From the NCBI RefSeq assembly GCF_047495875.1, contig NC_092472.1, forward strand, positions 293,349-357,348: a stretch of 64,000 nucleotides of DNA, given 5' to 3'. Numbering within the stretch: position 1 is the stretch's first letter; each line of letters begins with the position of its first letter. A program made the translations under genes and the position numbers. The notes below the pieces were generated by a model. That model made no database searches. It saw only the letters and a program-made list of their open reading frames with translations, and was not told the origin of the DNA. This document shows positions 156 to 48,339 of the stretch, piece after piece. Origin of the DNA: Pithys albifrons albifrons. Its lineage: Eukaryota > Chordata > Aves > Passeriformes > Thamnophilidae.

Positions 156-585
156 AGAGCTGCCCTTGGGCAGTGCCCTGTGCTAGGAGGGCTCTGCAGG
201 GAAGAGCTGAACACCCAAGGCTGGGATGGGGTCAGGGAGCACTGTCAGGGGTCAGCCCTGGGCACAGAGAAGCAGCTGCTGGCAGGGAGCTCCAGGCAGC
301 ACAGCCCTGAGCAGGGAGTGAGAGGGAGCTGCTGCTGCAATGCCATGGCAGAGGGGTTAGGGCAGCTCTGGGCCATGCCCTGAACTGCTGATTTCTTCCC
401 AGAACAAACCCCTGATCTCCACCACTCAGCAGAGCCTTTACTTCTAAGGCCATGGGGTCAGTGACATCTCCTTGGCAGACAGAGCCCTGATGAGGGGAAA
501 CTCCCTTTGCCCATTAGTTACTGAACACCTTCTTTGCATCAGTCTGCACCAACAAGACCAGCCCTCAGGGATCTCTGACCCAGGA
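156..585. repeat. Outer part of left palindrome arm
   Basis: This stretch is the reverse complement of about 23764-24193, with no length difference and about four mismatches seen by eye. It ends in AGGA (582-585), the left target-site copy of the ERV-A insertion. It contains no convincing gene; the short open frames on both strands recur as their mirror images in the other arm. Confidence 0.85.
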
Positions 586-1111
586 TGTTACAAATATATT
601 TGTAAATCTAACTGTGGAAGTAGTTATGCTAAGGTTTACGGGGTTTAACTGGGCCTGTGGTGGGGTAACTTGAAACAGTAGTGGGGGCCCAGAAACTATT
701 GGGAACTTGCTTGGAACAGCAGGACAATAATTAAAGCGATTAGTGAAGTAAATAGAACCTGAGGAAGAAAACAAACTGTTGCTTAAAGATAAGATTAGAA
801 TCAACATATGTAAAAGGTTTGGTGATGGGGGCCTAATTAACCAGAATCCTGTGTTAGACGAGCGTGGTAGATTTTTAACCCTTGGAGACGGACATCAATT
901 GTATACATATAACCTATGTAACTGATTTATGAACGAGACTGTGTGTCTTTGTGCACGTATAACGCTGTAGAAAAAGTATAAAAGCTGTCTTCAAGAATGG
1001 CTCATTGGAATCCTGGCTTAGGACAATAGTCCCCAGGTTTCCCGGGCCTAGCAAATAAAGCACCGCATAAACTGATACTCTGTCGGTTTGTGTTTCTGTG
1101 AACGGGCAACA
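586..1111 (+). repeat. ERV-A 5' LTR
   Basis: A 526-bp LTR with TGTT...AACA ends. A TATAAAA box lies at 977-983 and an AATAAA polyadenylation signal at 1054-1059, which puts R/U5 in the last 100 bp or so. It matches 8720-9246 almost base for base. Confidence 0.95.
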
Positions 1112-1117
1112 GTTTTC

Positions 1118-1137
1118 TGGCGCCCAAACGTGGGGCT
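1118..1137 (+). other. ERV-A primer-binding site, lysine-tRNA type
   Basis: Six bases after the LTR, the run begins TGGCGCCCAAACGTGGGG. It matches the complement of a tRNA-Lys (CUU type) 3' end except for one extra A. Lysine primers are commoner in beta- and lentivirus-like elements than in gammaretrovirus-like ones. Confidence 0.75.
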
Positions 1138-1499
1138 CCGAGGGCTGCTGGGGCGGTTCGCGTCCTGATCCACTCCAAGCCGGCACCGAGAATTTTCCTC
1201 GGGGAGTCATCAGTTCGTGCCCGGCCCCGCGCCCGTCGGACAACTACATAGAGGTGAGCCCGAAGGTGCTTTATTTTGAAAGGGGGGTGGCTTTATTCTG
1301 AAAGGGGGTGGTAAGATTGGTTGGTTGGTATTGGAAGCCTAGGCACCGGCCGTAAGACACGTACATAGGAATCGTGCAGGTCCGGTACTTGCCATTCGAT
1401 AGCGACTAGAATTGGCAAGTTGGGGACATAGGTTGGTGGTTAGTCGCAGCGTTGTACGTGTTTCTGTTATATATGTTGTCATTCGGGAGCTGTGGGATA

Positions 1500-3128
1500 A
1501 TGTCTTCTAATGATAAGGATATTCCCGAGGATTCCCCCCTCGGGTGTTTGTTGAAGCACTGGAAAACGGGGAATTTTGAACAAACTATGAAGAAAAAGAA
1601 CTTGATTGATTACTGTAATCATGTTTGGCCAGAATATGAAACGGGGGGAATGCAATGGCCGCGGAATGGTACAATGACTACGGAGATTATCGCTCCTTTG
1701 ATGGGTTTCTTAAGGGGAAATGATAAATGGGATGAGATACCTTACTTAGATTTGTTTTATCATTTAAAAGGAAAAACTGAATGGTTAAAAGAATGTGGTA
1801 TGCTGGTTTTGGAAACTATTAATAATGAATGTGTGGGTTGTAAATAGCGAAAGTTGCGCTTTATTGAGCCCCCGGAGGAAGATGTGTCGTTGTTGGTCTC
1901 CCCTAGTGCACCTCCGTGTCCCTCTCTTGAAAGCCTTAAAATAGGAAAAGAAAAGACCTCTGCTCCCTTCTCTTCAGACGAAGAGTTGGAGCTAGATAAT
2001 AGGGGTGATGTACAAAGAACCCCATTAGCTGGACGCACACGCCGGGGAAGGCAAAAGGGGAAGGAGGGGTACGTGCGGCCTAAATTGATGGCACCTCTAC
2101 GGGAGGCGGTGGGGACAGATGGTGGAAGGGTTATAGTTAAGGTCCCGTTTTCACCTAGCGATTTGATGATTTGGAAACAGTCAGCCGGAGCTTATCGGGA
2201 GAATCCGGAGACGGTTGCACGGGTGGTAAAAATGGTTATTAAGGCGCAAACACCAGACTGGAATGACCTGCAAGTTTTGTTAGATACTCTTATGGATTCT
2301 ACTGAAAAGGAGATGGTGATGAAAGTTATGACTGACCGGGCTAGGGACATGATAAGGGCTCAGGTAACCCATAGTACGGTTAATGAGTTAGTGCCGAGAG
2401 ATGACCCAGGATGGAATCCTAATACAGCCAGGGGATATGAGGCGCTTAAGGAATATCAGGAGTTGTTGGTTGAAGGAATTCGAGATGGCATTCCTAAAAC
2501 AATGAATTGGTCGAAATTGTATTCGGTTCGGCAGGAGAAGGGAGAATCTCCGTCGGCATTTTTGGAGAGGTTGAAGGATACGGCTCGAAAATATACTAAC
2601 TTGGATGTAGAATCAGAACCTGGTAAACTTCAGTTGGCTTTAATATTTATGGGACAGTCTCAGGAGGATATTAGGAAAAAGCTGCAAAAATTAGAAGGAG
2701 AAGAAATGCGGAACTTAGAAAAGCTGTTAGAGGTGGCATGGAAAGTATATAATAATAGGGAAAAGGAGACGACAAAGAAGCAGCAGGCAGGTATGTTGGC
2801 GGTATTGAAGCAAGCGACAGGGGGAAATACAGGAAATTTTAGGGGTCGGGGCCGGAGCCGAGGGCGAGGTGGACTTGGAAGGGGTGGCTTCGGGAATCAA
2901 GGGATGAATATGCGCGGGATGTTGGGACCTAATCAATGTGCCTTTTGTAAGGGATTTGGACATTGGAAGAACGAATGCCCGCTCAGCCAAGGAATGCAAA
3001 TGGGTGGCAGTTCTTTGCCCGGGGTTAACTTGGTCAGTGCTGCGGGGAACGGAATGAATCCATTTGCGAATAATCCACAAGGTGTCGCTCAGGCACTGAT
3101 GATGGGAAATACTCAAACTCAAAGCTGA
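1500..3128 (+). pseudogene. gag: ERV-A gag, one internal stop
   Basis: Encodes the structural polyprotein. The ATG at 1500 is the first good start in the frame and opens a matrix-like region. The residue after Met is Ser, so there is no N-myristoylation glycine. A TAG at 1845-1847 interrupts the frame after about 115 codons, and the same frame then runs open to 3128. The second part carries a p30-like capsid (roughly 2140-2760), a Gly/Arg-rich stretch (about 2830-2920) and one CX2CX4HX4C zinc knuckle (about 2938-2980). A single knuckle is typical of gammaretroviruses. The frame ends in TGA followed by CTA, in frame with pro. Apart from the TAG the gene looks well preserved. Confidence 0.9.
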
Positions 3129-3152
3129 CTAGACCAGGATCTTAAGGTGGTC
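3126..3152 (+). promoter_or_regulatory. Probable gag-pro stop readthrough signal
   Basis: The gag stop is TGA directly followed by CTA, a context known to favour stop-codon readthrough in cellular and viral genes. The next frame (pro) is in phase with gag. A five-base-pair stem, GACCA (3132-3136) with TGGTC (3148-3152), closes an 11-nt loop just downstream. Gammaretroviruses make Gag-Pol by in-frame readthrough, usually at UAG; here the codon is UGA. Confidence 0.65.
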
Positions 3153-3425
3153 ATGGAAATAGAGGGGGAGCCGGTAGAATTTAGGGTGGATACTGGGGCT
3201 AGTTATTCGGCAGTAAACGAATTACGGGGAGTTTTGAGTGAATCGAAAGTACTGGTTGTTGGGGTGTCTGGGGAGGTGGAAGAAAGGACATTCCTGCGGC
3301 CGCTTGATATTAAATTTGGGGGGAAAGAATTTGATCATCAATTTTTTATATATGCCGAACAGCTCAGAGTCACTACTTGGAAGAGATTTGCTTTAGGTTT
3401 TACAAGCAAGAATAATATTTGATAA
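3129..3425 (+). pseudogene. pro: ERV-A protease (pro), frameshifted
   Basis: A retroviral aspartic protease fragment. The catalytic DTGA motif sits at about 3189-3200 in the gag frame. The conserved C-terminal LLGRDLL segment is found in another frame, at 3373-3393, so an indel lies shortly before it. Stops follow at 3394 and beyond in that frame and at 3420-3422 in the first. The protein cannot be made whole from this copy. It follows gag in phase, which fits a Gag-Pro-Pol readthrough product. Confidence 0.85.
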
Positions 3426-6400
3426 GGATAGGGTAAAATTGGAAATACCAGAAGAAAACTTAGCAAAAATGTTTATGATTAAGGAAGTAGAACCAGAGAC
3501 GATACCAGAGGTGATAGAGCAGGCTGTGGCTCCGTGGGTTTGGGAGACGGGGATCCCTGGTAAATCAAAAGTGGCTGAGCCGGTAGTAGCAAAACTGAAG
3601 GAAGGAGCGCAACCGGTAAGGGTGAAACAATACCCAATAAGGCTTGAAGCAAGAAAGGGAATAGCTCCAATGATTGATCAGTTTGTGAAGTTGGGAATAT
3701 TAAGGGAATGTGAATCAGAATATAATACCCCTATTTTTCCAATAGTGAAGCCGAATGGAAAATACAGACTGGTGCAGGATTTAAGGGTAGTTAACGCAAT
3801 CACTAAAGATATATATCCTGTGGTAGCTAATCCGTATACGCTGTTAACATCTGTCTCTGAGAAATTTCAGTGGTTTACAGTAATTGACTTGAAAGACGCC
3901 TTTTTCTGCATACCCCTGGCACTTGAGAGTCAGCACATCTTTGCATTCGAATGGGAAAATCCACACACCGGACAGAAGTGCCAACTTACTTAGACTGGAC
4001 TGCCTCAAGGATTCAAATGTCACCTACTATATTTGGTAATCAGCTAGCCAAAGAATTGGAAGAATGGTGAACTACCCAGGTAAAAGATTCACCTTTTTCA
4101 TATGTAATTCTACAATACACAGACGATATATTCCTGGGAGCTACAGAAGGAGAACTCTGTTGTAAACTGACTATTGATCTATTGAACATGTTGGGGCAAG
4201 CGGAATACCGAGTTTCTAGGGAAAAGGCACAGTTGGTAAAACAGAAAGTTATCTACCTGGGTTGTGAAATTTCCCAAGGGGTACATCGATTGGGAACGAA
4301 CCGCATAAAAGCAATCTGTGACATTCCAGTGCCTCGTAATCACCATGAGTTAAGATCTTTCCTAGGAATGACTGTATGGTGCCAGCTGTGGATCCCTAAC
4401 TATGGACTAATGGCTAAACCATTGTATGAGGCTGTAAAGAAGCAGGTGTTTACATGGGAGCCAGCAGAAGAAAAAGTGTTTCAAGAATTGAAACAAGCCC
4501 TTAAGGAAGCGCCGGCCTTGGGACTGCCCGACCTGACCAAGGATTTTCAATTATATGTGCATGAGAAACAGCAGCTGGCGTTGGGAGTCCTCACCCAGAA
4601 ACTGGGGTCGTGGAAGAGGCCGGTGGGGTATTTCTCTAAACAGCTGGACGCAGTAAGTAGTGGTTGGCCGGGGTGCTTGAGGGCAGTGGTGGCTACCGTG
4701 ATACTGATACAAGAGGCTCGCAAATTGACTTTGGGAAAACATATGACAGTCTATGTGCCCCACATGGTGATTACTGTGTTGGAACAAAAGGGGGGACATT
4801 GGCTCTCCTCAAGTCGTATGCTCCAATATCAGGCCCTGCTAAGGGAGCAGGACGATATCGAATTAAAGCTAACCAACCACCTTAACCCGGCAGAATTTTT
4901 GATGTCTACTCAGGAGGAAGGGAAATTGGAGCACGACTGTGTCGAAGTGATTGAACAGGTTTACGCCAGTCGCAAGGACTTAAAAGATGAACCATTACCG
5001 GACCCTGATTGGGAACTATTCACAGACGGATCCAGCTTTGTGGAAAACGGCACCAGGTATGCTGGATATGCAGTGGTCACCCTGCGACAGACAGTGGAAG
5101 CAAAAGCACTACCACCGGGTACCTCAGCGCAAAAAGCTGAAGTTTGGGCTTTGGTGCGAGCTCTAATTTTAAGCCAAGGAAAAAGGGTGAACATTTGGAC
5201 GGATTCTAAGTATGCCTTTGGAGTAGTGCATGTGCATGGAGCCCTGTGGAAAGAGCGTGGACTGCTTAATTCACAGGGGTCTTCGATAAAACATCGAGAA
5301 GAAATCCTCCAGTTGTTGGAAGCAATTTATAAGCCTACTGCAGTAGCAGTCATGCATGTTAAACGGCATCAAAAGGATTCGGGGAAAGAATTTCAAGGTA
5401 ATCAACAAGCAGACCAGGTGGCACGCCAGGTTGCCCGGGAAGTATGGGCTCAGATGGCATTATTACCAACCCGGGAAAGCCCTGCTGCATCTTACATGGA
5501 GACAGTGCCTCATTATTCTCCAGAGGACGAGAAAGTTGCACAAATGATGTGTGCACGGAAGAATATCAAAGGATGGTATGTAACCCCTGTTGGTCAAGTG
5601 ATACTGCCGGTAAAAATCATGAAGCAGGTGCTTGAAGTGGAACACAATAAGTGCCATTGGGGTGCAGAGGCGTTAGTAAAATTTTTAAGGAAAGAAATAT
5701 TCTCAAACCAGATGTTAACATTAGCAAAGAGGATCAATGCCATGTGTGTGGCATGTATTAAAAACAATCCAGTGGTAAGGAAACAAGTAAAAATGGGGAT
5801 AATTAGAGTGGGGCCACAGCCTGGGGATTATTGGCAGGTGGATTTTTCTGAGTTTCCTAAAGCCCAACATTTTAAACATTTGTTGGTTTATGTTTGTACC
5901 TTTTCAGGATGGCCAGAGGCTTTTCCCTGCAGGACTAATCAGGCAAAGGAGGTGGTTAAAACGTTGTTAAAGGAGATTATTCCGAGGTTTGGAGTGCCTT
6001 TAGGAATTTCATCAGATAGGGGACCCCACTTTGTGGCTGGGATTGTTCAGGATCTTTCTAGAGTTTTGGGAATTTCCTGGGATTTACATACCCCTTGGAG
6101 GCCTCAGTCTAGCGGACAGGTAGAACGGATGAATCAAACATTGAAAAATCAAATTACAAAAATTTGCCAAGAAGCAGAAATCCAATGGCCGCAGGCATTG
6201 CCTTTAGCTCTGCTAAGAATCAGAATTAAACCCAGGGAAAGGGTGGGAGTTAGCCCATATGAGATTTTGTATGGGAAACCCTATCATGCTGCTACATATC
6301 AGGGGGACCCTCATTTAACTGGGGATCAAATGTTGCTTAATTATGTTTTGGCTCTGAATAAAACTCTTACAGCAATCAGAGGGATGTTGCAGTGGAATCG

Positions 6401-6650
6401 ACCTTTACCCCTGGAGAATCCAGCACACGATATTCTTCCGGGTGACCAGGTGTATGTGCGAAAGTGGTCTGAGGAGCCGTTGAAGGAGAGATGGGACGGA
6501 TCTCACCAAGTGATCATGACTACATATACCGCCATCAAGGTTCAAGGGATCGACAACTGGATCCATTACACCAGGGTGGAAAAGGTTCCTCTGAAATGGA
6601 CAGTAGAACCACTGTCACCCACCCGATTAATATTGCGAAGTCAGCCCTAA
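3426..6650 (+). pseudogene. pol: ERV-A pol: RT (broken), RNase H and integrase (open)
   Basis: The RT fingers and palm are readable from about 3430. A TAG at 3991-3993 stands where a conserved Trp is expected, a frameshift lies near 4018 beside the LPQG motif, and a TGA follows at 4068-4070. The YTDD active site is at 4116-4127. From 4071 the frame is open to the TAA at 6648-6650. RNase H is shown by TDGS (Asp codon near 5024), a TDSKYA segment and NQQAD. Integrase shows an N-terminal His/Cys zinc region (about 5640-5770) and a D-D35-E triad with codons at 5841, 6015 and 6123. Exactly 35 residues separate the last two. The C-terminus overlaps env. Confidence 0.95.
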
Positions 6651-8624
6651 TATTATGGTGGTGGATTGTTCCAGTGGGAGGGGTGGTAACGGCTGAAGTT
6701 CCAAGATCTTATGTAACTGTACGTGAAGGGAACGCTGTCAATCTAACTTGTTTATTTATTTGCGATCAGAGAGTTGGTTTCCGAGAAATTAAAGCTAGAT
6801 GGAAGGCTCGATGGGATGGGGCCGATGACGATCAAGAATTGACTTCAAAATTGACTTGGGATGAAAGGATGCGAAGGGGCACTTCTATCATGCATATACC
6901 GAAAGCTACAAAAATGTGGACGGGACACTATACATGTACAATAACAGTTCAAAGTAGTAGGGACCAGGGAAATGTAGAGTTACGGGTGATAGGATCCTCT
7001 GATCAGGAACCTGTCACTGACTCCCCGAATTCAGGGGTAGGTTGGGAAAAGGAATATGGACATCGTGAAAACTTAGTGATAGGTCTAATTAGAGATTTTG
7101 GTTTGATACAAAATGTATCTCAGATTACCGCCTGTTTACCTATGCCCCAGACTGCAAGTGATCCTATTCCGTGGGGGGTAATCCCCGTAACCGTTATGCC
7201 ATTATCAGGCAAGAATTTTTCATGGACATGTCATAAAGTATTTGGAAAAAGTACCTCGACCAGAATCGAAAGGGGCTGATATATGTTTGACTAAACGGGT
7301 AATGACAGAAACAGAGTGCAAAAAGAAACCTACGTATTATGTATGGCTAAGGGACACAGGTAGATGTTATATCAAACCCCCTTTTGATGAACCCTGTGAT
7401 CACGCCCGTACTGGGGCACCACGACAAAATATAAAATGGGGAAAACAACAATATGCTATAGAATGCCGGAATGTTACTCATGATGTTGATATCTGGAAAA
7501 AATGGAAAACTACTTGGGGTTCTAGTATCTCGGAGCATTATAGCTATATTGGCAAGGTGCAGTGGTGTATACAGTGGACGGGAACAGAAGATCAGTCACA
7601 CCTAAAGGTTTTTACCACTGAAACCTCTTCCAGGTATTTTCATACGCAGCTAGAAGAATGGAATTGTACCCAAGTATTTACATGCGACACTCCGGAGGAT
7701 CAGATAGGACTTGTTCCCGTAAAAATGGTATTGAAGTGGGGATGTGAGTGTAGAGGATATAAACATTATATTACTATAGAACAGGAAGAGAAGGCTGTTA
7801 ATTGTAAATACTCAACTGTACATAGCCCGGGAAATTTAGTATGGGTACTAGGACACGGGCAGTGGACAACTCACTTGCCCTTAGATGGACTGATTACACA
7901 AATTACTTTAGGAATTCCTACATTATGCCCTTTTTGGAAGGAATCAAAATTAACTAAGGAAGAAAAACAACTACGAAGTAGACGAAGTGTGAATCAGGAT
8001 TTACAGGATTTAGGATTAGATAAAGAAGGTTGGCATGAACCCTCAGGGGGAGTTAAATTTGGGTGGGCTCTAGAATCTTTGTTTGCACCAGTTGCCTCCT
8101 ATCGGAATAGAGAGATGTTGTATAAATTAATGGGTCAAACTGAAAGATTGGCAGCGGTAACCAGGAAAGGATTCAAAGCTATAAACATCCAGTTGCAGGC
8201 TACTTCTAGGATGACTTTACAGAATAGAATGGCTTTGGACATGATACTTCTCAAAGAACACGGTGTTTGTGGGTATTTGCATGGTAGAAATGAGCACTGC
8301 TGTATACACATCCCAAATGTTACTCAAGATGTCGAGAATGAAATTCGTCAATTGGGACAAATCGAAAATAAGGTACGTGAGGTAAAAGAAGAAGCAGAAC
8401 ATAACTGGATTGGACAAATCTTTAGTTTCCTTGGAATCCAGGTCTCTGGTTGGCTCTCCTCGATTATACAGTATGGAATATTAATCGTAATAATTGTTGT
8501 GGCAGTTTTAATTGTTTATAAGTGTCTTTTAGGAATGATTCTAAAAAGAAGGTCAGCACACACGCCAAGTGATCAAGGCTGTCACTCGGAAAGAAATGAT
8601 TATACCGGAAGCTTTGAAGCCTAA
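6596..8624 (+). pseudogene. env: ERV-A env with Ig V-like surface domain, one frameshift
   Basis: The start is taken at ATG 6596, overlapping the end of pol by 55 bp. It gives a signal peptide (hydrophobic core about residues 16-32). Residues about 34-124 then look like an immunoglobulin V domain: Cys52, core Trp69 or Trp73, and a TGHYTC strand ending at Cys114. The frame stops at 7277-7279. The rest of Env continues in another frame that opens at 7242, so a small indel lies near 7245, beside an A run. The second part holds a furin-type RSRR (7974-7985), an LQNR-type immunosuppressive-like segment with a C-X9-CC motif (about 8268-8305), a membrane anchor (about 8467-8545) and a short tail. 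Envelope spike roles are inferred from the family. Confidence 0.9.
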
Positions 8625-8670
8625 TATGTCAGCTCCTCCGCCCTATTCGGAGGCAACTATTTGAATGATT

Positions 8671-8706
8671 GAGCATCCTTGCGAAAAAGAAGCTCGAAGG
8701 ATGCTC
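8671..8706 (+). other. Ten-bp perfect hairpin just before the ERV-A PPT
   Basis: GAGCATCCTT (8671-8680) and AAGGATGCTC (8697-8706) are perfect inverted repeats with a 16-nt loop. The hairpin lies between the env stop and the polypurine tract. It could act in RNA export, priming or stability; no function can be read from sequence. Confidence 0.7.
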
Positions 8707-8719
8707 AAAAGGAGGGAGT
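8707..8719 (+). other. ERV-A polypurine tract
   Basis: The run AAAAGGAGGGAG sits directly before the TGTT of the 3' LTR, where the plus-strand primer is expected. Confidence 0.85.
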
Positions 8720-9246
8720 TGTTACAAATATATTTGTAAATCTAATTGTGGAAGTAGTTATGCTAAAGTTTACGGGGTTTAACTGGGCCTGTGGTGGGGT
8801 AACTTGAAACAGTAGTGGGGCCCAGAAACTATTGGGAATTTGCTTGGAACAGCAGGACAATAATTAAAGCGATTAGTGAAGTAAATAGAACCTGAGGAAG
8901 AAAACAAACTGTTGCTTAAAGATAAGATTAGAATCAACATATGTAAAAGGTTTGGTGATGGGGGCCTAATTAACCAGAATCCTGTGTTAGACGAAAGCGT
9001 GGTAGATTTTTAACCCTTGGAGACGGACATCAATTGTATACATATAACCTATGTAACTGATTTATGAACGAGACCGTGTGTCTTTGTGCATGTATAACGC
9101 TGTAGAAAAAGTAGAAAAGCTGTCTTCAAGAATGGCTCGTTGGAATCCTGGCTTAGGACAATAGTCCCCAGGTTTCCCGGGCCCAGCAAATAAAGCACCG
9201 CATAAAGTGATACTCTGTCGGTTTGTGTTTCTGTGAACGGGCAACA
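8720..9246 (+). repeat. ERV-A 3' LTR
   Basis: A 527-bp copy of the 5' LTR. One of the differences changes the TATA box to TAGAAAA, so this copy is probably a poorer promoter. AGGA (9247-9250) follows as the right target-site copy. Confidence 0.95.
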
Positions 9247-9384
9247 AGGAGACTGGGGTATAGGAATGTTGGAAGGAAGATCCTCCCTTGGTCAATGAGG
9301 ATTGGGTCAGAGAACAAGGATTGGGTCTGAGAACACCTAAACAAAGTCCACATCTACAAGTCCGTGCCTGGAAGGGTAATGAAA

Positions 9385-9535
9385 TGTCTCCTTCTGAAGC
9401 CCATCTCTACCCACGTGGAGGACAAGAAAATGATCAGGAGTGGTCAGCATAGATTCACTAAAGGGAAACCAGGTTTGATCAATCTGATTGGCTCCTCCAA
9501 TGAAACAAGTCCCTGGATGGCTGAGTGGATATTAC
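9385..9535 (+). mobile_element. CR1 reverse-transcriptase fragment (left arm)
   Basis: A short stretch translates to a decayed version of the CR1 RT segment of the type QHGFTKGKSCLTNLI. It is too short and broken to be functional. The mirror copy is at about 23479-23629. The DNA from 9600 to 9880 shows nothing recognisable. Confidence 0.55.
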
Positions 9536-9883
9536 CAAGATTTCCCTTTCACAATATGGGACCTCATGGTGGCCTGGGGCCCCTCTGACGCTTCATGCTC
9601 TCATGTGACCAAGGGGACACTGTGACACTGTGGGGTTGCATGGCTGTCTGTGTCTTCTGATAGTTCTGTGTATGTAGAGAGAGGCAAAGCACTGTAGCCT
9701 GAGAGTGTTGATTCAAAATACTACCATCTTCACCAGAATGCGCCCCTGATTAACAGAGGGACTGTGTGTTCCCTCTGCTCTCTGGGGCACTGGCATCCTT
9801 TCAGAGATGTCCAACACTCTACTGGCCAACACCCCAGGATGGGTTCTCCCCTGGAGGGAGGAGCAGAGACTTCTTTTACAACA

Positions 9884-10619
9884 TGAGGTTGCTCAAAGCC
9901 CCATCCAGCTTGGTCTTGAATGTTTCACCACTGCCTCCCTGAAAAAGTGTTCCAGTGTTTCACCATTCTCATCATAAAATATGTCTTCTTTATCTGTAGT
10001 CTGAACTGACCCTCTTTTAGTTTAAATTGCTCACCCCTTGTCCTTTTGCCACAGGCCCTACTGAAACCTTTGCCCACATGTTTCTAATAAACCACCTTTA
10101 AGTACTGCGAGACCCCAGGGAAGTCTCCCCACAGCCATTTTGTTCTCCAGGATGAAAAACCCCCAACTCTCTCAGCCTGTCTCCATCAGAGAGGTGCTCC
10201 AGCCCTCTGATCATCTTGGTGGCTTCTTCTGGAACTGCTCCAAGAGGTCCCTGTCTTTCTTGCGTTAAGGACCCCATCGAGCTGCATGAGATGCAGGGGC
10301 TGGCAGGGTAACCAAAAGTGATTACCATTCAGGGCAGGTGCATTACAAACACTGAGAGGTCCCCAGAACTGGAAGCAGCACTGCAGTTGAGATCTCACCT
10401 GAGCAGAGCAGACGGGCAGAACTCACCCTCATCTACTGCCCATGCTGTAGGATGAGGCCAGGACACAGCAGGTTCCTGGCTGTGAGCCCACATTGCTGGG
10501 TCACATCCTGCTTTTCATCCACAAGTATCCCCATGTCCTTGTGTGCAGGGCTGCTCTTGGCCCCTTCATCCCCCAGCCTGTATTGGTATCTGGGAGTATT
10601 TTACATCCTCTGGCTCCCT
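9884..10619 (-). mobile_element. CR1 LINE 3' end (left arm)
   Basis: On the minus strand this reads as the usual avian CR1 3' region: the RT C-terminus with the gagcacctctc and gacaggctgagagagttggg blocks, then the tail region. It is truncated at both ends. The mirror copy is at 22395-23130. Confidence 0.85.
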
Positions 10620-10984
10620 TTAAGCCCTTTCCTGTCCCTCTTAGAGGTGGACAGAGGACCCAGAGGTTCCAGGCTTCTTGTGCCTGTTCCTCTCCATTCC
10701 CAAATCCAACCTGTGCTCCTTTGAGATGGTGCTCATGAAGCCCCAGCCAGCACCTGTTTCCTGCTGTGTTCCCAAACCCAGGTGCCCCAGTGGTTGCCCT
10801 TGTGCCCCTCACCTTTCCTAGCCCCTGGGGGGATACACCAGAGTCCCCCAACCTGTCCTGCCTGGGGGATACATGGAGGGGGTGAAGGGGATCTCCTGTG
10901 CAGAGATCCTCAGGTGCCCCCTGAGTACTCTGCTGATTATCAGAGTGTGGGCAGAGAGGCACCGAGTGTGCAGGGGCTGGAGAA

Positions 10985-11135
10985 GGGAGGGTACAAGGAC
11001 ATGGGAGCACACATAGACATGGGAACACATGTGTGGACATGGGGACACACACATGGACATGGGGACACACACAAGGACATGGGGACACACACACGGACAC
11101 AGGAACACACATGAACACAGACACAGACAGACTCA
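10985..11135. repeat. Minisatellite, about 22-24 bp units (left arm)
   Basis: Imperfect tandem copies of a unit like acatggggacacacacatgg. It lies just beyond the polyadenylation site of the minus-strand gene. Long open frames across it are low-complexity artefacts. The mirror copy is at about 21879-22029. Confidence 0.85.
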
Positions 11136-11157
11136 GACCATGGCTTTGCTGAAGGGG

Positions 11158-13692: not shown

Positions 13693-14384
13693 CTTCCTCT
13701 CACAGTGGGGAGTGCTGGGTGAGGCTGGAGAAGGTGAGGAACACACTTATCCCTCCTGGGACTCCTCCCTGCACCCTCCCCAAGAGCCCCCAGTGTAAAG
13801 CTTGGCTTGGCAGACTCCAGCTCTGGCCACAAGCCCAGCCCTGCCACAGAGTCCATCCTGCCTCTGGCATGGATCCAGCCACCATCCCTGGCATCTGTCC
13901 AGCTTCCTGCTCAGAGCAGCTGCCCCTGGAAGGGCCCAGGCCCCTGAAGGAGCCTGGAGGCAGACAGGGATCCAAAAGCAGCTGCACACCCTGTGGGTCA
14001 ACCCCTTCTGCAACACAATCCATCCTCCCACAGCCCCCAAAGCCTGAACCCCCCATCTGCTGGTGCCTCTCCCTTCCCAGAGCTTTCCCTGCAGGACACC
14101 CCAGAGCTGACCCCAGCCCCAAACTTGGCACATTTGAGCACAATTATCCCTGTGTCCACTCCAGCCCCTTGGCTGAATGAGGGGCTGACACTGACCCCTC
14201 TTCTCGGGGCACCAGGACCCCAGGATGAGGCAAAAAAGGGAGGTGGCAGATAAAGGGGGTCACAGGCCATGGGAGCAGCCTGGCATCTCCAGGCTCTGGT
14301 TAGTTGTGGAGGCACTGGGGAGCAGTGGGGAGTGTTGGCCCTGGGAGACAAGGGCTTGGCTTAGGAAAGTGCTGGGGTGGTTGC

Positions 14385-14792
14385 TAAAGTAAACAAACTT
14401 TTGCAGAGAGAGAGGACTTCACCAACAAGCTTATGAAGTTTATAGTGAAGACCTTTTATTTCACACAGCACACGGTTTGTATAGTGTTAGAGGTACATCT
14501 TATTGGCTAAAAAGGTCTCACCCCAACACCCTAGAACTTCTAATTGGTTAAAAGCCCATCTCTCACAAGTCCAGTGTTTGTATTATCTCATCCCAATGTT
14601 TTGAGGTCCATGTCCAGAGATCAGGAAGGCAGTTGAGACGTTCTCATGAAAACATTTGCAAGGAGTGACCGTTGCCTAACGGACAAACAGCAGGTGTGTG
14701 TCCTTGCAAGCTGAAGTATCTGCATGATTCTCACGGAGCTGAAGCAGTTTGGATTGCTCAGAAATTCACTTTTTGCAAGCAATCTCACAACA
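14385..14792 (-). repeat. Solo LTR with GGTTGC target duplication (left arm)
   Basis: A 408-bp LTR in minus orientation, reading TGTTGTGAG...TTTACTTTA. GGTTGC flanks it at 14379-14384 and 14793-14798. The 6-bp duplication suggests a class II (beta/alpha-like) integrase. The 3' end is TA rather than CA. The AATAAA signal reads as tttatt on the plus strand near 14455. Relatives in this window are at 50708-51116 and, more distantly, the ERV-B LTRs. Confidence 0.9.
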
Positions 14793-14798
14793 GGTTGC

Positions 14799-15377
14799 AG
14801 TGCTGGCTCCAGCCCATTTCCTGCCACTGCAGCCCCAAACCAGGCCAGGCCCAGCCACTGCCTCCCCAAGCAGAGCCCAGGGGAGAAGAACCCCTGTCCC
14901 AGCCCTCCCCCTGTCCCACCTGGGAACAGTGTCCTCCCACCTCACCCAGGGCTCACTCTGATGAGCTGTCCCTGATACGGGGTCCCAGCGACCCTGACCC
15001 CAGCAGAGCTTGTCTGCAGACTGGGCTGGGACTGGGACACAGCTCTCACAGCCCCTCTGTCCTCAGGGATGTCCTTTCCCTGCCCTCATCCCAGGGCTGT
15101 CCCTGAGCAAGATGGGACCTTCCCACCCGAGTGTCCCTTGCTCTCATCGCAGCTCAGAGGCCCCTGCCAGGTGGGACCCCTGTGGGCAGAGATCAATGAC
15201 AGTCACTGATCAGTGTCTCCTGGGAGGTGCCAGAACCTCAATTCTTCACTGACATTCAGTGAAATTTCTGGGAGATGTTCCACCCTTATGGGACACTGAC
15301 GATACAAAAGACAGCAGTTGTGGGGCAGGTGGAAAAACATTTCAGGTGATTGACTTGACTATTTGCATTGTATTTTC
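14799..15377. other. Inner end of left arm, no gene seen
   Basis: GC-rich DNA with several open frames that reappear as mirror images in the right arm. None shows a recognisable domain or a codon pattern I would trust as coding. Confidence 0.5.
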
Positions 15378-17636
15378 ATGAGGTGCCAGCACTAACCTGG
15401 AAGATTTCCTTTTGGCCCCTTTCTGCTTTTTGCCTCTTTTATTGGATAATTGAAGAATGTAGACTGAGGAGAGGCTCAGGGGAGGTAAAGCTGCTTAGCT
15501 GGGGCATTTACACCCCATAACACAAAAGGTACCCCTCTGGACAACCCCAGCTGTGGCATCTCAGGCATGCTCATGTTTGTGAATCAGCAGCTCTATGGAA
15601 GAGGGAAAGTCCACAGTTTGGTGTTTGACAGAGATTAAGGAGAGACATGACCAGGATGCCTGAGGTGCAGCTGATAGCCCCCGGACTGTCTCCTTTCCCC
15701 TCCCTGAGCAGGGCTGGGAGGAACTGGACAAATTCTTCCTGTTCCTGCTGTTCCTTCTGAGGGTTTTTTCCAACACTCAGATTTCAAGTCAGTTTTGGGC
15801 CTCGCTGTTCTCAGGCCATGACCTGCAGGAAGGTGTTGCAGAGAGAAAGGGGAGGAGAAAAGGGGGCCCTGTTGTCAACCAAATTTACATCTCATATCCC
15901 AACTTCCTGGTGCCCTCCAGTTCTCAGAGTCCCTCAGTACCTATGCATGGCACGGGGGTACACGAAACTCAGCAGGAAGTCTTTGTCCTGTTGTACTGGT
16001 TGTGACTGGGATAACTTAATGGTTTACAGGCCATGCCAGTGACCTGCCTCATCTCAGTGTAGTATCATGGAATCATGGAATCGTTTAGGTGTGATGGGAC
16101 CTTAAAGCCCATCTCATTCCATCCCCTGCCACAGGCAGGGACACCTTCCACTAGACCAGGTTGGCCCAAGCCCCATCCAACCTAGCCTTAGACACTTCCT
16201 GGGATGGGACAGCCACAGTTTCCATGGGCAACCTGGGAACACCCTCCCAGGGAAAACTTTTTTCCAAATATCCACCTAACCCTACCCTCTATCAATGGGA
16301 AGCCATTTCCCCTTCTGTCATCACTACAAGGTCCTCATCAAAAATCCCTCTTCAGCTTTCTGGGAGCCCTACTTGGCACTGGAAGGTCTCCCTGGAGCCT
16401 TCTCTTCTCTAGGCTGAACAATCCCATTAGTCCCAGCCTGTCTTCAGAGCACAGCTGCTCCAGCTCTAAGAGCATCTCTGTGGCCTCTTCTGGATCCACT
16501 TCAACAGGTCCACGTCCACAGGTCCTCTGGTGACCCAAGAGCTGGAGGCAGCACTGCAGGTGGGGTCTCACCTGAGAGGAGCAGAGGAGCAGATTCCCCT
16601 CCTTCCTTGCTGATCAGGATAAGCACAGGACATGAGGAGTTTCCAGGATAGGTCATGTTTCATTTGTCACCCACCGGCACCCCCTGATCCCTGTTGCAGG
16701 GGACTCCCACCCCTTCATCCCCCAGCTTGGATTGATACCCTGGGTTGACCTGACCCAAGTACAGCTCCTGCACTTGGTCTTGTTAAACCTCAGGAGATTC
16801 CCATGGGACCATTTATCTTTCTTGTCCAGGTCCCACTGGCTGCCATTGTGTCCCTCAGGTGTGTCACCTGCACTGCTCAGCTCAGTGTCATTTGCTAAGT
16901 GTGCCCTCAATCCCTTTGTCTAGCTCATTAAGGAAGCTATAAAATACCACTGGTCCCAGTATGGACCATGAGGGACACTGGTCACAGGTCCTTCAGTGCC
17001 TCTGGCCTGTGGCCTGCTCCCATTTTTGTTGGGCAACACGGAACACAGGCAGGTACCTCCAATGGTTGTCACCTCCAGCAGTCTGGGACCTCAACCCAAA
17101 CAAGGGTTTGGGCTTCTGAGGGAGCATCAGGAGATCGGCAACGAGGGATCTCTGGCCCTGGGTCTGCCAGAGAGACATGCCTGCACCTGCTGAGCATTGT
17201 CCTGCAGCGTTCCACACAGGTGAGGAGAAGAGAGAGGCTCTAGAAGGATCTGGAAGGAAGCAGGAAGGATCTGTGGAAGTTGATAACAACTTAGGAGAGA
17301 TGCAAAACTATTTCAGCCCCTCTTCAGGAAAGCAAATTTTCAGTGCATAACTTCGATGTCAAATACTGGATCCAAAACTCAGGAATTTGAAGGAATGGAG
17401 TCCAGCTGGGGATTCCTTGCTGGGGATAAGGGCATGAACAGTAGGACTGGGAATGAGGCAGCAGTCCTCAGCCTCTGGAGGCAGTTCCTGCTAAGTAGGA
17501 GGGACAGAAATCACTTTAAGAAATTTCTTGCAAACTCACAGTAAAGGAGGTACCAGGATCCAAGGAAACTGACACATGAAGCAGAAACACATCAATGAGG
17601 CATGAAGCAGAAACAGAAAAAGGAAAAGCCCTCTGG
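15378..17636. other. Palindrome spacer
   Basis: A 2259-bp single-copy sequence between the arms. The parts 15378-16060 and 17000-17636 show no gene. The middle is a CR1 LINE 3' end, listed separately. Confidence 0.8.
16062..16990 (-). mobile_element. CR1 LINE 3' end in the spacer
   Basis: On the minus strand this ends in the CR1-style terminal repeat (atggaatcatggaatcg read on plus at about 16068). Upstream come the standard 3' blocks on wound-up consensus: ccttccactagaccagg and ccagctctaagagcatctct, then the RT C-terminus. The 5' part is missing, as usual for CR1. Confidence 0.8.
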
Positions 17637-18221
17637 GAAAATACAATGCAAATAGTCAAGTCAATCACCTGAAATGTTTTTCCACCTGCCCCACAACTGC
17701 TGTCTTTTGTATCGTCAGTGTCCCATAAGGGTGGAACATCTCCCAGAAATTTCACTGAATGTCAGTGAAGAATTGAGGTTCTGGCACCTCCCAGGAGACA
17801 CTGATCAGTGACTGTCATTGATCTCTGCCCACAGGGGTCCCACCTGGCAGGGGCCTCTGAGCTGCGATGAGAGCAAGGGACACTCGGGTGGGAAGGTCCC
17901 ATCTTGCTCAGGGACAGCCCTGGGATGAGGGCAGGGAAAGGACATCCCTGAGGACAGAGGGGCTGTGAGAGCTGTGTCCCAGTCCCAGCCCAGTCTGCAG
18001 ACAAGCTCTGCTGGGGTCAGGGTCGCTGGGACCCCGTATCAGGGACAGCTCATCAGAGTGAGCCCTGGGTGAGGTGGGAGGACACTGTTCCCAGGTGGGA
18101 CAGGGGGAGGGCTGGGACAGGGGTTCTTCTCCCCTGGGCTCTGCTTGGGGAGGCAGTGGCTGGGCCTGGCCTGGTTTGGGGCTGCAGTGGCAGGAAATGG
18201 GCTGGAGCCAGCACTGCAACC

Positions 18222-18629
18222 TGTTGTGAGATTGCTTGCAAAAAGTGAATTTCTGAGCAATCCAAACTGCTTCAGCTCCGTGAGAATCATGCAGATACTT
18301 CAGCTTGCAAGGACACACACCTGCTGTTTGTCCGTTAGGCAACGGTCACTCCTTGCAAATGTTTTCATGAGAACGTCTCAACTGCCTTCCTGATCTCTGG
18401 ACATGGACCTCAAAACATTGGGATGAGATAATACAAACACTGGACTTGTGAGAGATGGGCTTTTAACCAATTAGAAGTTCTAGGGTGTTGGGGTGAGACC
18501 TTTTTAGCCAATAAGATGTACCTCTAACACTATACAAACCGTGTGCTGTGTGAAATAAAAGGTCTTCACTATAAACTTCATAAGCTTGTTGGTGAAGTCC
18601 TCTCTCTCTGCAAAAGTTTGTTTACTTTA
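18222..18629 (+). repeat. Solo LTR (right arm), co-oriented with the gene
   Basis: Mirror of 14385-14792, with GCAACC on both sides (18216-18221 and 18630-18635). It lies about 0.7 kb upstream of the ATG of the small gene and points the same way. A TATA-like ctatacaaa lies near 18531 and aataaa near 18554. Confidence 0.9.
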
Positions 18630-19321
18630 GCAACCACCCCAGCACTTTCCTAAGCCAAGCCCTTGTCTCCCAGGGCCAACACTCCCCACTGCTCCCCAGT
18701 GCCTCCACAACTAACCAGAGCCTGGAGATGCCAGGCTGCTCCCATGGCCTGTGACCCCCTTTATCTGCCACCTCCCTTTTTTGCCTCATCCTGGGGTCCT
18801 GGTGCCCCGAGAAGAGGGGTCAGTGTCAGCCCCTCATTCAGCCAAGGGGCTGGAGTGGACACAGGGATAATTGTGCTCAAATGTGCCAAGTTTGGGGCTG
18901 GGGTCAGCTCTGGGGTGTCCTGCAGGGAAAGCTCTGGGAAGGGAGAGGCACCAGCAGATGGGGGGTTCAGGCTTTGGGGGCTGTGGGAGGATGGATTGTG
19001 TTGCAGAAGGGGTTGACCCACAGGGTGTGCAGCTGCTTTTGGATCCCTGTCTGCCTCCAGGCTCCTTCAGGGGCCTGGGCCCTTCCAGGGGCAGCTGCTC
19101 TGAGCAGGAAGCTGGACAGATGCCAGGGATGGTGGCTGGATCCATGCCAGAGGCAGGATGGACTCTGTGGCAGGGCTGGGCTTGTGGCCAGAGCTGGAGT
19201 CTGCCAAGCCAAGCTTTACACTGGGGGCTCTTGGGGAGGGTGCAGGGAGGAGTCCCAGGAGGGATAAGTGTGTTCCTCACCTTCTCCAGCCTCACCCAGC
19301 ACTCCCCACTGTGAGAGGAAG

Positions 19322-21856
19322 ATGAAGGTCACTGTGCTCAGCGTGGCCCTGCTCTTCACCATCCTGCTGAGCCCTCAGGCAGAAGCCATGGTAAGATTCC
19401 GATGCCACTGGGATAGGTTCAGGGGTGAGCTTCTTCCCACTCCAGGAAGTCCCTCAGGACTCCCCTGCACCTCCAGGCAATGCCTCTTTCTTCCTGCCAT
19501 GATTCCTTCTGTTCTTCCCCATCCTGTAATTGTACTCCTGGAGCCGGAGCTCTGGTTTCTCATGGAATGTTTGAACTAGGCTCTTTCCTGGCAGAGTCAC
19601 ACTGGTTTCTGGTTTTCTTTTGCACATTTTGCACCTCCCCATCCCATCCCCTTAGTTCCCTCAGGCATCTCCCCAGGATCTTCTCTGTTTCCCATCCAAG
19701 GATAAAGGCTGAACCTAAACTGGGGTGAACTGGACCAAGCTCAAATTGAGTCAAATTAGGACAAACAGGACCAAGGGCCAAAGTGCGCCGAATTGGGGCA
19801 AAGCCAAGCCAGGCTGAACAGGGACATGTCCCCCCATGGATGTTTCCCAGGATCTTTCCTCCAGTCTTTCCCCTCAACCCATTGCCTTTCCTCCTGTCCC
19901 CAGCTTCCGTAAGAGCCTTAATCCCAAGCACTCCTGCTCAGAGTGGCATGTAGCCATGGGCTGGGGGGGTGAGGACACCTGTGTCCCCACTACAGACTCA
20001 CAAGGGCCAATCTCAACCAAGTCTTTGCTCTCCTTCTGTAGGACCCCACTGAAATAAGTGGTGAAGGCTGTGATTGGGTAAGTCCTGGAGTTGGGGGGCA
20101 CCCACTGTGGGAAATGGGGGGCAGTTTGGTCCCCCTATACCTTACTGGAACTGGGGATACCCCAGTGACCAGTGGCATCTCATGATCTCTCTACAGAATG
20201 GCATCATCCGTGGAGTGGACGGCCAGGGGAGTACCAGGAGTTTTACTGGGCCCAGATTCTCCTCTGTCATGGTCACAACCCTCCAGGGCATCTCAGTGCT
20301 CCCCAGTCCACCCCAGTTTTTCCTGGGGAGTCCCCTTCTTCATGAGCCCCATTGTGTTATCACACACCCCAGTCCACCCCAGTATACACACACAGGGCAT
20401 CATTCCCAACCCATTTCCTTTCCTCTTTCCACCCTAATCCTTTCACTTTCCCATTGCACTTCACAGTGATGCTGCTAAATCCCATTCCTTGACTCCCTAG
20501 TCCCAAACCACCTCCAAATTCCTTTAATTTTGCCCCTTTCCTTGTTTTCCTGACCTCATCCATCCCCTGCTTCATTCCCCATTTTCTCTCCACTGGAATT
20601 CCTTCCACCTCACCTGCCTTTCTTACAGTTCTATCCTTTCTAGACCCTGATTCCCACAATGTGTGGTCCCCAGTTTCCCCCAGTTCACCATCTTTGGGTC
20701 CCCTCCCTCTCACCCTCATCCTCCTTGAATGCCCTGATTTGCCCTCACTCTCCTTGTCTCCATCCCCACCCTGATCCCTGCTGGATCAGGGATCCCAGGG
20801 GAAACTGGACAGAGTGGGACTGGGAGGAGCAGAAGGGATTTTCCCTCTACGTCAGAGGGCAGCCATTGGGGGTCTGGGGACACCTGTGTCACCCACAGCC
20901 CCAGAGGGGCCAATCCTGATTAAACCTGTGCTCTCCTTGCTCAGGCACTCACAGGAGCAGGTATAGGTGGATGTATTGGGGTAAGTACTGGAGTTGGGGG
21001 GCATCCAGTGTGGGAACTGCGGGCCAATTTAGTCCCCCATCCCTTATGGGGACTGTGGATGCCCCAGTGACCAGTGACACTTCACGGTCTCTCTACAGGG
21101 AGGTATCAAGATCAGTCGACTGAAGAGGTCTGAGGTGGGTACTCTGAGTTCTTCTAGGCCCAGACTCTCCTCTCTTATGGCCACGACCCTGCAGGGCATC
21201 CCAGTGTTTCCCAGTACATCCCAGTGAGCCCCAGAACATCCCACTGTCTCTAACCCTGCCTTTCTCCACAGCCCCCTGTGGCTGACCAGGTGGAACTTCT
21301 GCGCGAGTGACGCTGAGTTTCCTCTCTGGTTGCCTCTCCAGGTGAGAAATATCAGAGGGTCCTCAGGCCCCCAAAGGGTCCTGGGAGGGTCCTGGGTGAT
21401 CGCTGAACCCTCAGGGTTAGGCAGAACTTGGGCACAGCAAACGGACACAGTGGTGGCTGTCCCTCATCTGTGTCCCAGGTGAGCTAGACAGCTTCCCCCA
21501 CGTCTTTTCTGGCACTCAGGTGGCTCTGCAGACCCCCAGCATCACCAAGAAAGCAGGGAGGGGCTCTGGGAGATCTCAGAGTACCGGGCTGATTTAGTCT
21601 GGAGGCCACATGGATCTCAGGATTCATTTCCCCTCTCCTGATCCAGGTCCTTTCAGACAGATGGGGTAGGAACAAGTCCCCTCTCATGCCCCAGTGGACC
21701 CCGGGGCTGATGTTTTGGGCTCTGCCTTTCAGGACTGGAACTGGTGGTGACATCCCTGTCCTGTCCCTTTCCAGCTGTATGAGGAGGTCATCCTCCCTGG
21801 AGGACACCCCTGATCCCTTGGGAGCCCTTGGAAATTTCCCTGGAATCATCAATAAA
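19322..21856 (+). CDS. Small multi-exon gene with signal peptide, right copy, function unknown
   Basis: Exon 1 (19322-19390) encodes a 23-residue start beginning MKVTVLSVALLF, a clear signal peptide ending near QAEA, followed by a GTAAG donor. Four further exons fit splice rules in phase 0: 20042-20077, 20945-20980, 21099-21134 and 21272-21341 (stop 21308-21310, then a CAG/GTGAGA donor). The first three are exactly 36 nt each. A 3' UTR exon starts at 21775 with AATAAA at 21851-21856. A possible exon at 20197-20226 has a perfect acceptor, but its donor reads GG. The mature peptide would be about 48 residues, glycine-rich in the middle (motif AGIGGC) and basic near the end. The tiny phase-0 exons recall FXYD genes, but the FXYD motif is absent and the hydrophobic run is too short for a confident membrane span. 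Function is unknown. Confidence 0.6.
19975..21235 (+). repeat. Tandemly duplicated two-exon cassette inside the gene
   Basis: About 19975-20340 and 20875-21230 align along exon, intron and second exon, including the ctggagttggggggca intron block and the ccccagtgacc block. The cassette duplication doubled one exon pair. The donor of the second exon in the first cassette is GG instead of GT, so this exon may be skipped. Confidence 0.8.
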
Positions 21857-21878
21857 CCCCTTCAGCAAAGCCATGGTC

Positions 21879-22029
21879 TGAGTCTGTCTGTGTCTGTGTT
21901 CATGTGTGTTCCTGTGTCCGTGTGTGTGTCCCCATGTCCTTGTGTGTGTCCCCATGTCCATGTGTGTGTCCCCATGTCCACACATGTGTTCCCATGTCTA
22001 TGTGTGCTCCCATGTCCTTGTACCCTCCC
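21879..22029. repeat. Minisatellite (right arm)
   Basis: Mirror of the minisatellite at 10985-11135. It begins just after the gene's polyadenylation signal. Confidence 0.85.
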
Positions 22030-22394
22030 TTCTCCAGCCCCTGCACACTCGGTGCCTCTCTGCCCACACTCTGATAATCAGCAGAGTACTCAGGGGGCAC
22101 CTGAGGATCTCTGCACAGGAGATCCCCTTCACCCCCTCCATGTATCCCCCAGGCAGGACAGGTTGGGGGACTCTGGTGTATCCCCCCAGGGGCTAGGAAA
22201 GGTGAGGGGCACAAGGGCAACCACTGGGGCACCTGGGTTTGGGAACACAGCAGGAAACAGGTGCTGGCTGGGGCTTCATGAGCACCATCTCAAAGGAGCA
22301 CAGGTTGGATTTGGGAATGGAGAGGAACAGGCACAAGAAGCCTGGAACCTCTGGGTCCTCTGTCCACCTCTAAGAGGGACAGGAAAGGGCTTAA

Positions 22395-23130
22395 AGGGAG
22401 CCAGAGGATGTAAAATACTCCCAGATACCAATACAGGCTGGGGGATGAAGGGGCCAAGAGCAGCCCTGCACACAAGGACATGGGGATACTTGTGGATGAA
22501 AAGCAGGATGTGACCCAGCAATGTGGGCTCACAGCCAGGAACCTGCTGTGTCCTGGCCTCATCCTACAGCATGGGCAGTAGATGAGGGTGAGTTCTGCCC
22601 GTCTGCTCTGCTCAGGTGAGATCTCAACTGCAGTGCTGCTTCCAGTTCTGGGGACCTCTCAGTGTTTGTAATGCACCTGCCCTGAATGGTAATCACTTTT
22701 GGTTACCCTGCCAGCCCCTGCATCTCATGCAGCTCGATGGGGTCCTTAACGCAAGAAAGACAGGGACCTCTTGGAGCAGTTCCAGAAGAAGCCACCAAGA
22801 TGATCAGAGGGCTGGAGCACCTCTCTGATGGAGACAGGCTGAGAGAGTTGGGGGTTTTTCATCCTGGAGAACAAAATGGCTGTGGGGAGACTTCCCTGGG
22901 GTCTCGCAGTACTTAAAGGTGGTTTATTAGAAACATGTGGGCAAAGGTTTCAGTAGGGCCTGTGGCAAAAGGACAAGGGGTGAGCAATTTAAACTAAAAG
23001 AGGGTCAGTTCAGACTACAGATAAAGAAGACATATTTTATGATGAGAATGGTGAAACACTGGAACACTTTTTCAGGGAGGCAGTGGTGAAACATTCAAGA
23101 CCAAGCTGGATGGGGCTTTGAGCAACCTCA
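22395..23130 (+). mobile_element. CR1 LINE 3' end (right arm)
   Basis: Mirror of 9884-10619, in plus orientation. It starts in the RT C-terminal block (ataccaatacaggctggggg) and ends near gagcaacctcatg, short of the CR1 terminal repeats. The DNA from 23130 to 23764 has a decayed CR1 RT fragment on the minus strand (about 23479-23629) and nothing else recognised. Confidence 0.85.
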
Positions 23131-24193
23131 TGTTGTAAAAGAAGTCTCTGCTCCCCCCTCCAGGGGAGAACCCATCCTGGGGTGTTGGCCAGTAGAGTGT
23201 TGGACATCTCTGAAAGGATGCCAGTGCCCCAGAGAGCAGAGGGAACACACAGTCCCTCTGTTAATCAGGGGCGCATTCTGGTGAAGATGGTAGTATTTTG
23301 AATCAACACTCTCAGGCTACAGTGCTTTGCCTCTCTCTACATACACAGAACTATCAGAAGACACAGACAGCCATGCAACCCCACAGTGTCACAGTGTCCC
23401 CTTGGTCACATGAGAGCATGAAGCGTCAGAGGGGCCCCAGGCCACCATGAGGTCCCATATTGTGAAAGGGAAATCTTGGTAATATCCACTCAGCCATCCA
23501 GGGACTTGTTTCATTGGAGGAGCCAATCAGATTGATCAAACCTGGTTTCCCTTTAGTGAATCTATGCTGACCACTCCTGATCATTTTCTTGTCCTCCACG
23601 TGGGTAGAGATGGGCTTCAGAAGGAGACATTTCATTACCCTTCCAGGCACGGACTTGTAGATGTGGACTTTGTTTAGGTGTTCTCAGACCCAATCCTTGT
23701 TCTCTGACCCAATCCTCATTGACCAAGGGAGGATCTTCCTTCCAACATTCCTATACCCCAGTCTCCTGGGTCAGAGATCCCTGAGGGCTGGTCTTGTTGG
23801 TGCAGACTGATGCAAAGAAGGTGTTCAGTAACTAATGGGCAAAGGGAGTTTCCCCTCATCAGGGCTCTGTCTGCCAAGGACATGTCACTGACCCCATGGC
23901 CTTAGAAGTAAAGGCTCTGCTGAATGGTGGAGATCAGGGGTTTGTTCTGGGAAGAAATCAGCAGTTCAGGGCATGGCCCAGAGCTGCCCTAACCCCTCTG
24001 CCATGGCATTGCAGCAGCAGCTCCCTCTCACTCCCTGCTCAGGGCTGTGCTGCCTGGAGCTCCCCGCCAGCAGCTGCTTCCCTGTGCCCAGGGCTGACCC
24101 CTGACAGTGCTCCCTGACCCCATCCCAGCCTTGGGTGTTCAGCTCTTCCCTGCAGAGCCCTCCTAGCACAGGGCACTGGCCAGGGGCAGCTCT

Positions 24194-32880: not shown

Positions 32881-32904
32881 AAGAAAATTTTGACACCAGG
32901 TTCT

Positions 32905-48336: not shown

Positions 48337-48339
48337 AAC

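Follow-up and report, generated by a model that had tools for sequence, protein, structure and literature searches.

Previous studies showed that palindromes of the primate Y chromosome, P6 among others, keep their arms more than 99.9% alike through gene conversion and undergo rare inversions by crossover between the arms; for human P6, the available text of PMC3723533 (Hallast 2013) gives arms >99.9% alike, a mean minimum tract of 2,068 bp, and three inversions. In birds, conversion has been inferred for a W-linked palindrome in sparrows and blackbirds of the New World (Davis 2010, as cited in PMC7787181 and PMC7692361), and 38 W palindromes, repeat-rich and with long terminal repeat (LTR) elements, are described for the duck in PMC7787181, where the accessible text discusses conversion rather than measuring it. 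Human segmental duplications also show ectopic tracts between paralogues, through interlocus gene conversion, which in the excerpted text of PMC4467073 is not tied to inverted arm pairs; PMC8981503, PMC5591018, and PMC11168930, likewise in excerpt, serve as general background. Here we describe a 64,000-nucleotide stretch of the genome of Pithys albifrons albifrons (C15:293349-357348, C15 being contig NC_092472.1; this whole stretch is called the window), which contains a palindrome with a provirus of an endogenous retrovirus (ERV), named ERV-A, in one arm.

This palindrome is very probably old, its arms having been kept near-identical by recurrent ectopic recombination, for the most part gene conversion of the non-reciprocal kind, with probably one arm crossover. 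Palindrome conversion is an already known process rather than a new kind, and the locus is a new informative case of it. Its 2.7 kb tract and flipped spacer are of the same kind as those given in the available text on human P6, but unlike the primate Y palindromes it lies on a 20 Mb contig not known as a sex chromosome, has arms of 6.6 kb, exchanges sequence with a third copy, and carries a provirus in one arm. The sparrow and blackbird palindrome, as cited, is likewise a bird palindrome with inferred conversion but is W-linked, whereas C15 is not known as W; the duck palindromes in the accessible text are also on W and span 15.2-345.5 kb. Unlike the human segmental duplications of PMC4467073, the inverted pair here is far older than its divergence suggests, and the logic is that of cross-species comparison of orthologous palindromes, applied between loci of one genome. 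Narrow word searches of the literature found no work joining gene conversion, retroviral insertion, palindrome, and boundary, and a similar search found none joining autosomal palindrome and gene conversion, neither being proof of absence from print.

The left arm (L), the right arm (R), and a third arm copy upstream (C3) were compared. Self-comparison of the window aligned the inner arms (9247-15377 against 23767-17637) over 6,131 bp without gaps and with 4 substitutions (0.065%; 99.93% identity), in agreement with the divergence below 0.1% given in the original prediction, and these inverted arms surround a single-copy spacer. The outer inverted segments (156-585 against 24193-23764; 430 bp) differ by 6 substitutions (1.4%), about 20 times the inner divergence. 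The original prediction had named a full alignment of arms and LTRs as its check, and in that alignment divergence inside and outside is indeed unequal (p = 1.3e-5 by Fisher test; p = 9e-4 minus two sites of the last 20 bp). It had also put the outer divergence at about 1%, which is right in being higher than the inner one but is too low as a value, 0.98% being reached only when the edge sites are removed. Within the inner arm, three of the four differences are in its outer half, the fourth (12428) falls just beyond the midpoint, and the 2,949 bp adjacent to the spacer hold none. The GC content is 54.1% in the arms, 51.3% in the spacer, and 48.5% and 46.6% in the flanks, with no consistent excess of C15 over related arms on another contig, C31 (54.0-56.6%, aligned columns).

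The age of the palindrome is indicated by these relatives. The assembly searched comprises 1.144 Gb in 53 contigs; genome-wide arm matches are a lower bound, and counts apply among the matches listed. Many related arms lie on C31 (3.03 Mb), most of them with 78-86% identity; they include at least seven facing pairs with inner ends 2.1-2.4 kb apart, plus single arms. In two of the C31 palindromes, P1 (C31:438500-450700) and P5 (C31:1775000-1789914), the spacer is flanked by inverted arms as in the window; their arms are ~80% identical to the window's, and their spacers are 80.9% (P1, 1,902 aligned columns) and 81.5% (P5, 2,254 columns) identical to it. The own arms of P1 are 91.7% alike and those of P5 84.0-90.7% in three pieces, and the P5 right arm is 87-88% like the P1 arms, roughly as close as the P5 arms are to each other. 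Since P1 and P5 have the arm-spacer-arm layout in common with the window, the palindrome predates the split of the C15 and C31 loci, and the 99.93% identity of the C15 arms therefore implies later homogenisation; set against the ~80% of P1 and P5, the palindrome is older than its arm divergence. As a separate observation on C31, the P1 right arm and three further copies (L006, L007, L008) are 99.4-99.6% alike, the two arms of P1 being 6-8% apart, and whole C31 palindromes may have been recently amplified.

The third arm copy, found by the genome search at C15:250704-256853, was studied with the sequence beside the window (C15:223349-293348 and C15:357349-367348). C3 and L belong to the two units of a direct tandem duplication that repeats after ~42.5 kb; these units (231349-251133 against 273889-293933) differ by 78/19,740 substitutions, or 49/17,832 without the two windows of a minisatellite (C15:277889-279888). 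C3 carries neither ERV-A nor the solo LTR of both window arms, and its spacer has the opposite orientation. With arm positions numbered outward from the spacer, and with positions 586-995 (solo LTR) and one copy of a 4-bp target duplication omitted from three-way counts, the differences over arm 1-3517, 3518-6130, and 6131-6557 are, respectively, 55/3107, 0/2613, and 6/427 for R-C3; 55/3107, 2/2613, and 2/427 for L-C3; and 2/3107, 2/2613, and 6/427 for L-R. The arms thus form a mosaic, in which L and R stand together against C3 near the spacer, all three are near-alike in mid-arm, and L and C3 stand together against R outside the ERV site. R equals C3 over 2,727 bp, a run seen in 0 of 20,000 permutations, with divergence of 1.8% and 1.4% on either side. 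Sites private to R and to C3 number 5 versus 1 outside the ERV site and 1 versus 54 near the spacer (p = 6e-6), and the outer grouping of L with C3 is also supported by a ~20 kb flank common to both. When C31 is used as outgroup, C3 is derived at 30 of its 55 private sites, ancestral at 18, and in another state at 7; derived changes common to L and R therefore occur near the spacer. Outgroup polarity was unusable for the outer 430 bp, as the C31 matches stop at arm position 6197 and states beyond it are possibly misaligned. The tandem flank diverges by 0.28-0.43% between L and C3, patchily: with the minisatellite excluded, the differences vary from 0 to 9 per kb (p = 0.0015 for dispersion in 18 of 21 windows, without the two minisatellite windows and the final 44-base window), as if the units also exchange sequence.

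An insertion common to both window arms gives another line of evidence. The solo LTR sits at the same base in L and R and is absent from C3 and from the listed C31 copies, 21 of which, among those listed, end at arm position 584-585, where it would begin; both arms being ancestral, it was therefore copied across. ERV-A, ~20 times longer, was not copied to R. As for the spacer, L adjoins its end 1 (window 15378) and C3 its end 2259 (window 17636), with the ~20 kb outer flank in common, and an arm crossover in one unit would yield such a reversed spacer. This is one case of inversion, and the stretch from C3 to the second tandem unit showed no partner arm for C3. The C3-side spacer breaks at window-equivalent 16545, exactly at an LTR of a further provirus, ERV-C, which suggests a provirus-mediated rearrangement. 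Elsewhere in the window (32904-36742), a 389 bp repeat pair (96.1%) lies ~3 kb apart and probably represents the two LTRs of a provirus of short length, to which the solo LTR of the arms is related.

ERV-A has paired TG...CA LTRs, a 4-bp target duplication, and open reading frames (ORFs) matching the Pfam domains Gag_p30, RNase H, integrase core, and MLVIN_C (of the 36 listed window ORFs, 19 were compared with Pfam), and is gammaretrovirus-like by these features; the LTR ends, the duplication length, and the gag and integrase domain types we take to be gamma-type markers. It was predicted to be confined to L with a clean target duplication, and AGGA is found on both of its sides, with a single AGGA at the site in R and likewise in C3. 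The predicted LTR divergence of about 1.7% is also confirmed by alignment (9/525 substitutions), and exceeds that of the inner arms (p = 6e-8; with 6 non-CpG sites, p = 4e-5). ERV-C (C15:257972-265762) is a member of the ERV-A family in reversed orientation; the ends of its LTRs are intact, and its flanks form no matching target duplication. Compared piece by piece from 5' to 3', ERV-A and ERV-C differ at 18/1000, 3/62 plus 30/244 (the counts of the second piece covering these columns only, as the remaining ERV-A stretch there has no match), 12/840, 12/1004, 15/1000, 7/1000, 5/1000, and 1/608. The fall in divergence suggests that, toward the 3' end, sequence has probably been exchanged between the two proviruses, which makes the LTR differences they share unfit for dating. 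The idea that ERV-C is simply a duplicated ERV-A was rejected on the differing flanks, the lack of a matching target duplication, and the 18/1000 and 30/244 differences.

In the history we propose, the palindrome was in place before the C15 and C31 loci split, as the layout of P1 and P5 shows, and the C15 arms were homogenised after that split, as follows from the shared layout. A solo LTR landed in one arm and was then copied to the other, which follows from the age of the palindrome; ERV-A would have landed in L without being copied, and the divergence pattern points to overwriting of the neighbouring inner arms, the outer 430 bp keeping an older divergence. The 8.66 kb heterology would probably limit the reach of tracts, aided by the outer segment being the arm end, and probably one arm crossover flipped the spacer in the window unit or its tandem neighbour. 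Arm-to-arm exchange is well supported; this half of the original interpretation now stands on firmer ground than when it was made, with the C31 layout, the mosaic, and the solo LTR, whereas its other half, blocking by ERV-A, is not secured, as the outer 430 bp are also the arm end and the boundary falls within a bracket of 726 bp.

Several points weigh against this account, apart from two taken up with the rival explanations below. The data are a single assembly, and conversion between the arms may have run in either direction. The outer comparison consists of 6 sites in 430 bp, 2 of them within the last 20 bp, and taken by itself the contrast there between L-C3 (2/429) and L-R (6/430) falls short of significance (p = 0.29). 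The longest identical run of L and R (2,539 bp) is not significant either (permutation p = 0.05) because the two differ at so few sites, 10 in all. The seven C31 pairs were inferred from coordinates, two of them (P1, P5) being also read as sequence, and the C31 arms, judging by their identities, are not strongly homogenised.

The low-to-high change in L-R divergence is bracketed between window positions 468 and 9859, which equals ~726 bp of arm with the ERV site included. ERV-A as a barrier is plausible and fits this pattern, and in our judgement the case is about evenly poised. An alternative, which we hold to be somewhat short of an even chance, accepts conversion as real but not ERV-A as its barrier: the outer 430 bp are simply the arm end, where the homology stops and which few tracts reach. 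The arm does end at 156, the change in divergence is bracketed no more closely than stated, and R-C3 identity, the first of the two points deferred above, stops 117 bp beyond the ERV site, at window 468, although neither copy carries ERV-A, so the provirus may not be the cause. However, had L donated to R once ERV-A was in place, the R-C3 change would be a legacy of the blocked event, so that the end at 468 can come either from such an event or from an arm end that was simply less converted. Moreover, by simple arithmetic, a 726 bp bracket would cover the ERV site in a ~6,557 bp arm by chance only about 1 time in 9.

The second deferred point concerns the LTR clock, which is weaker than first assumed, the LTR dating of ERV-A being compromised. 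A bad clock might create the age paradox by itself, if the ERV-A LTRs diverged partly via other proviruses and ERV-A is perhaps young; we consider this rather unlikely. In the comparison of four LTRs, 3 of the 9 substitutions and one indel split 5' from 3' LTRs in ERV-A and ERV-C alike, and the two proviruses differ at only 1/608 beside the 3' LTR versus 18/1000 beside the 5' LTR. Yet six substitutions are private to the ERV-A LTRs in this set, and 6/525 still exceeds the inner arms (4/6127, p = 4e-5); these six sites also exceed the tandem-flank rate (p = 0.004-0.03), and compared with the spacer half (8/1092) give p = 0.19. When CpG sites are removed too, 3/525 remain; these differ from the inner arms at p = 0.013 but no longer exceed the tandem-flank rate (p = 0.19 and 0.50). 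The case for conversion is independent of the LTRs.

A related proposal, which we find unlikely, is that conversion purged ERV-A from C3, an empty R-type arm having overwritten ~2.7 kb across the site and left a perfect empty site. In its favour, R equals C3 over the 2,727 bp spanning the ERV-A site while the outer flank of C3 groups with L, and the ERV-A LTRs (9/525) exceed the L-C3 flank divergence of 0.28-0.43% (p from 4e-5 to 9e-4). Against it, the LTR excess shrinks with the six sites (p = 0.004-0.03, or 0.19 versus the spacer half) and is gone at 3/525; ERV-A may instead be younger than the tandem duplication.

An assembly artefact, with two haplotypes misplaced as tandem or inverted copies, is very improbable overall. 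The first tandem unit starts exactly at the end of a run of at least 8,000 N (231348/231349), and the tandem units differ by 0.3-0.4%, an allele-like level. However, no N occurs from 231349 to 367348, the copies differ structurally (ERV-A, solo LTR, spacer orientation, ERV-C), and inverted arms around a unique spacer of 2.26 kb, an arrangement present on C31 as well, are atypical for haplotype duplication; false duplication of two haplotypes is thus unlikely. A young inverted duplication, in which R was recently made from an L haplotype without a then-polymorphic ERV-A, would suit the almost identical inner arms and the lack of ERV-A in R and C3, but is hardly credible and was rejected on the C31 spacers, since P1 and P5 have the same layout with a homologous spacer and both arms are thus older than the locus split, and since outer L-R divergence is so far above the inner. 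A polymorphic ERV alone was rejected likewise, as even then the insertion must postdate the separation of its own flanks from the copy that lacks it.

The value of the locus, as a palindrome maintained by exchange between its arms, is that one genome holds the provirus and the third copy together with relatives that have diverged. If this reading is right, it offers a natural test of inverted-repeat upkeep, in which a small insertion crossed between arms and a large one did not, with the C31 palindromes as control, the age of a duplication would be unreadable from arm identity, and an empty site would not by itself show that a provirus had always been missing there. The coordinates of all features are collected in Table 1.

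Table 1. Features of the palindrome, in window positions.
Feature	Position	Strand	Remarks
Outer segment of L	156..585	+	430 bp beside ERV-A; L-R 6/430, L-C3 2/429, R-C3 6/429
ERV-A, gammaretrovirus-like provirus	586..9246	+	8,661 bp; L only; AGGA 4-bp target duplication; empty site in R and C3
ERV-A 5' LTR	586..1111	+	9 substitutions and 2 small indels versus 3' LTR
ERV-A 3' LTR	8720..9246	+	first 126 bp equal ERV-C 3' LTR, then 15 substitutions
Inner L	9247..15377	+	6,131 bp; substitutions versus R at 9859, 11169, 11953, 12428
Candidate first coding exon	13624..13692	-	signal peptide, then GT splice donor; mirrored in R
Solo LTR in L	14383..14792	+	6-bp target duplication GGTTGC; absent from C3
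Spacer	15378..17636	.	2,259 bp; homologous to spacers of two C31 palindromes; 16545-17636 reversed beside C3
Inner R	17637..23767	-	empty ERV-A site at outer end
Solo LTR in R	18222..18631	-	same site, no difference from L copy
Outer segment of R	23764..24193	-	5 of its sites unlike both L and C3

A small gene for a secreted protein may lie in the arms, as the candidate exon in Table 1 suggests: its best 60-bp windows reach 0.967 against an arm mean of 0.814 (5 C31 rows), and no further exons were found beyond it. Part of the arm is presumably a CR1-like fragment. Across the window, the Rfam scan gave no family above its threshold, and comparison with a phage collection gave no match.

Outside the palindrome, a further provirus, ERV-B, occupies 41796-48921 of the window, with LTRs of 582 bp that differ by 8 substitutions and CAGG at both sides. 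A 250-aa ORF on the minus strand (38790-39542) matches the Pfam olfactory receptor family 7tm_4. Another retroelement lies at 54854-64000, with ORFs that contain internal tandem repeats and match no Pfam family, and with matches to a protease (weak) and to a reverse transcriptase; its part at 62935-64000 repeats 58255-59325 at 78.6%, and the repeat continues beyond the window end. Finally, the contig starts with a 177-bp satellite array (C15:1-3000), ~290 kb from the window.

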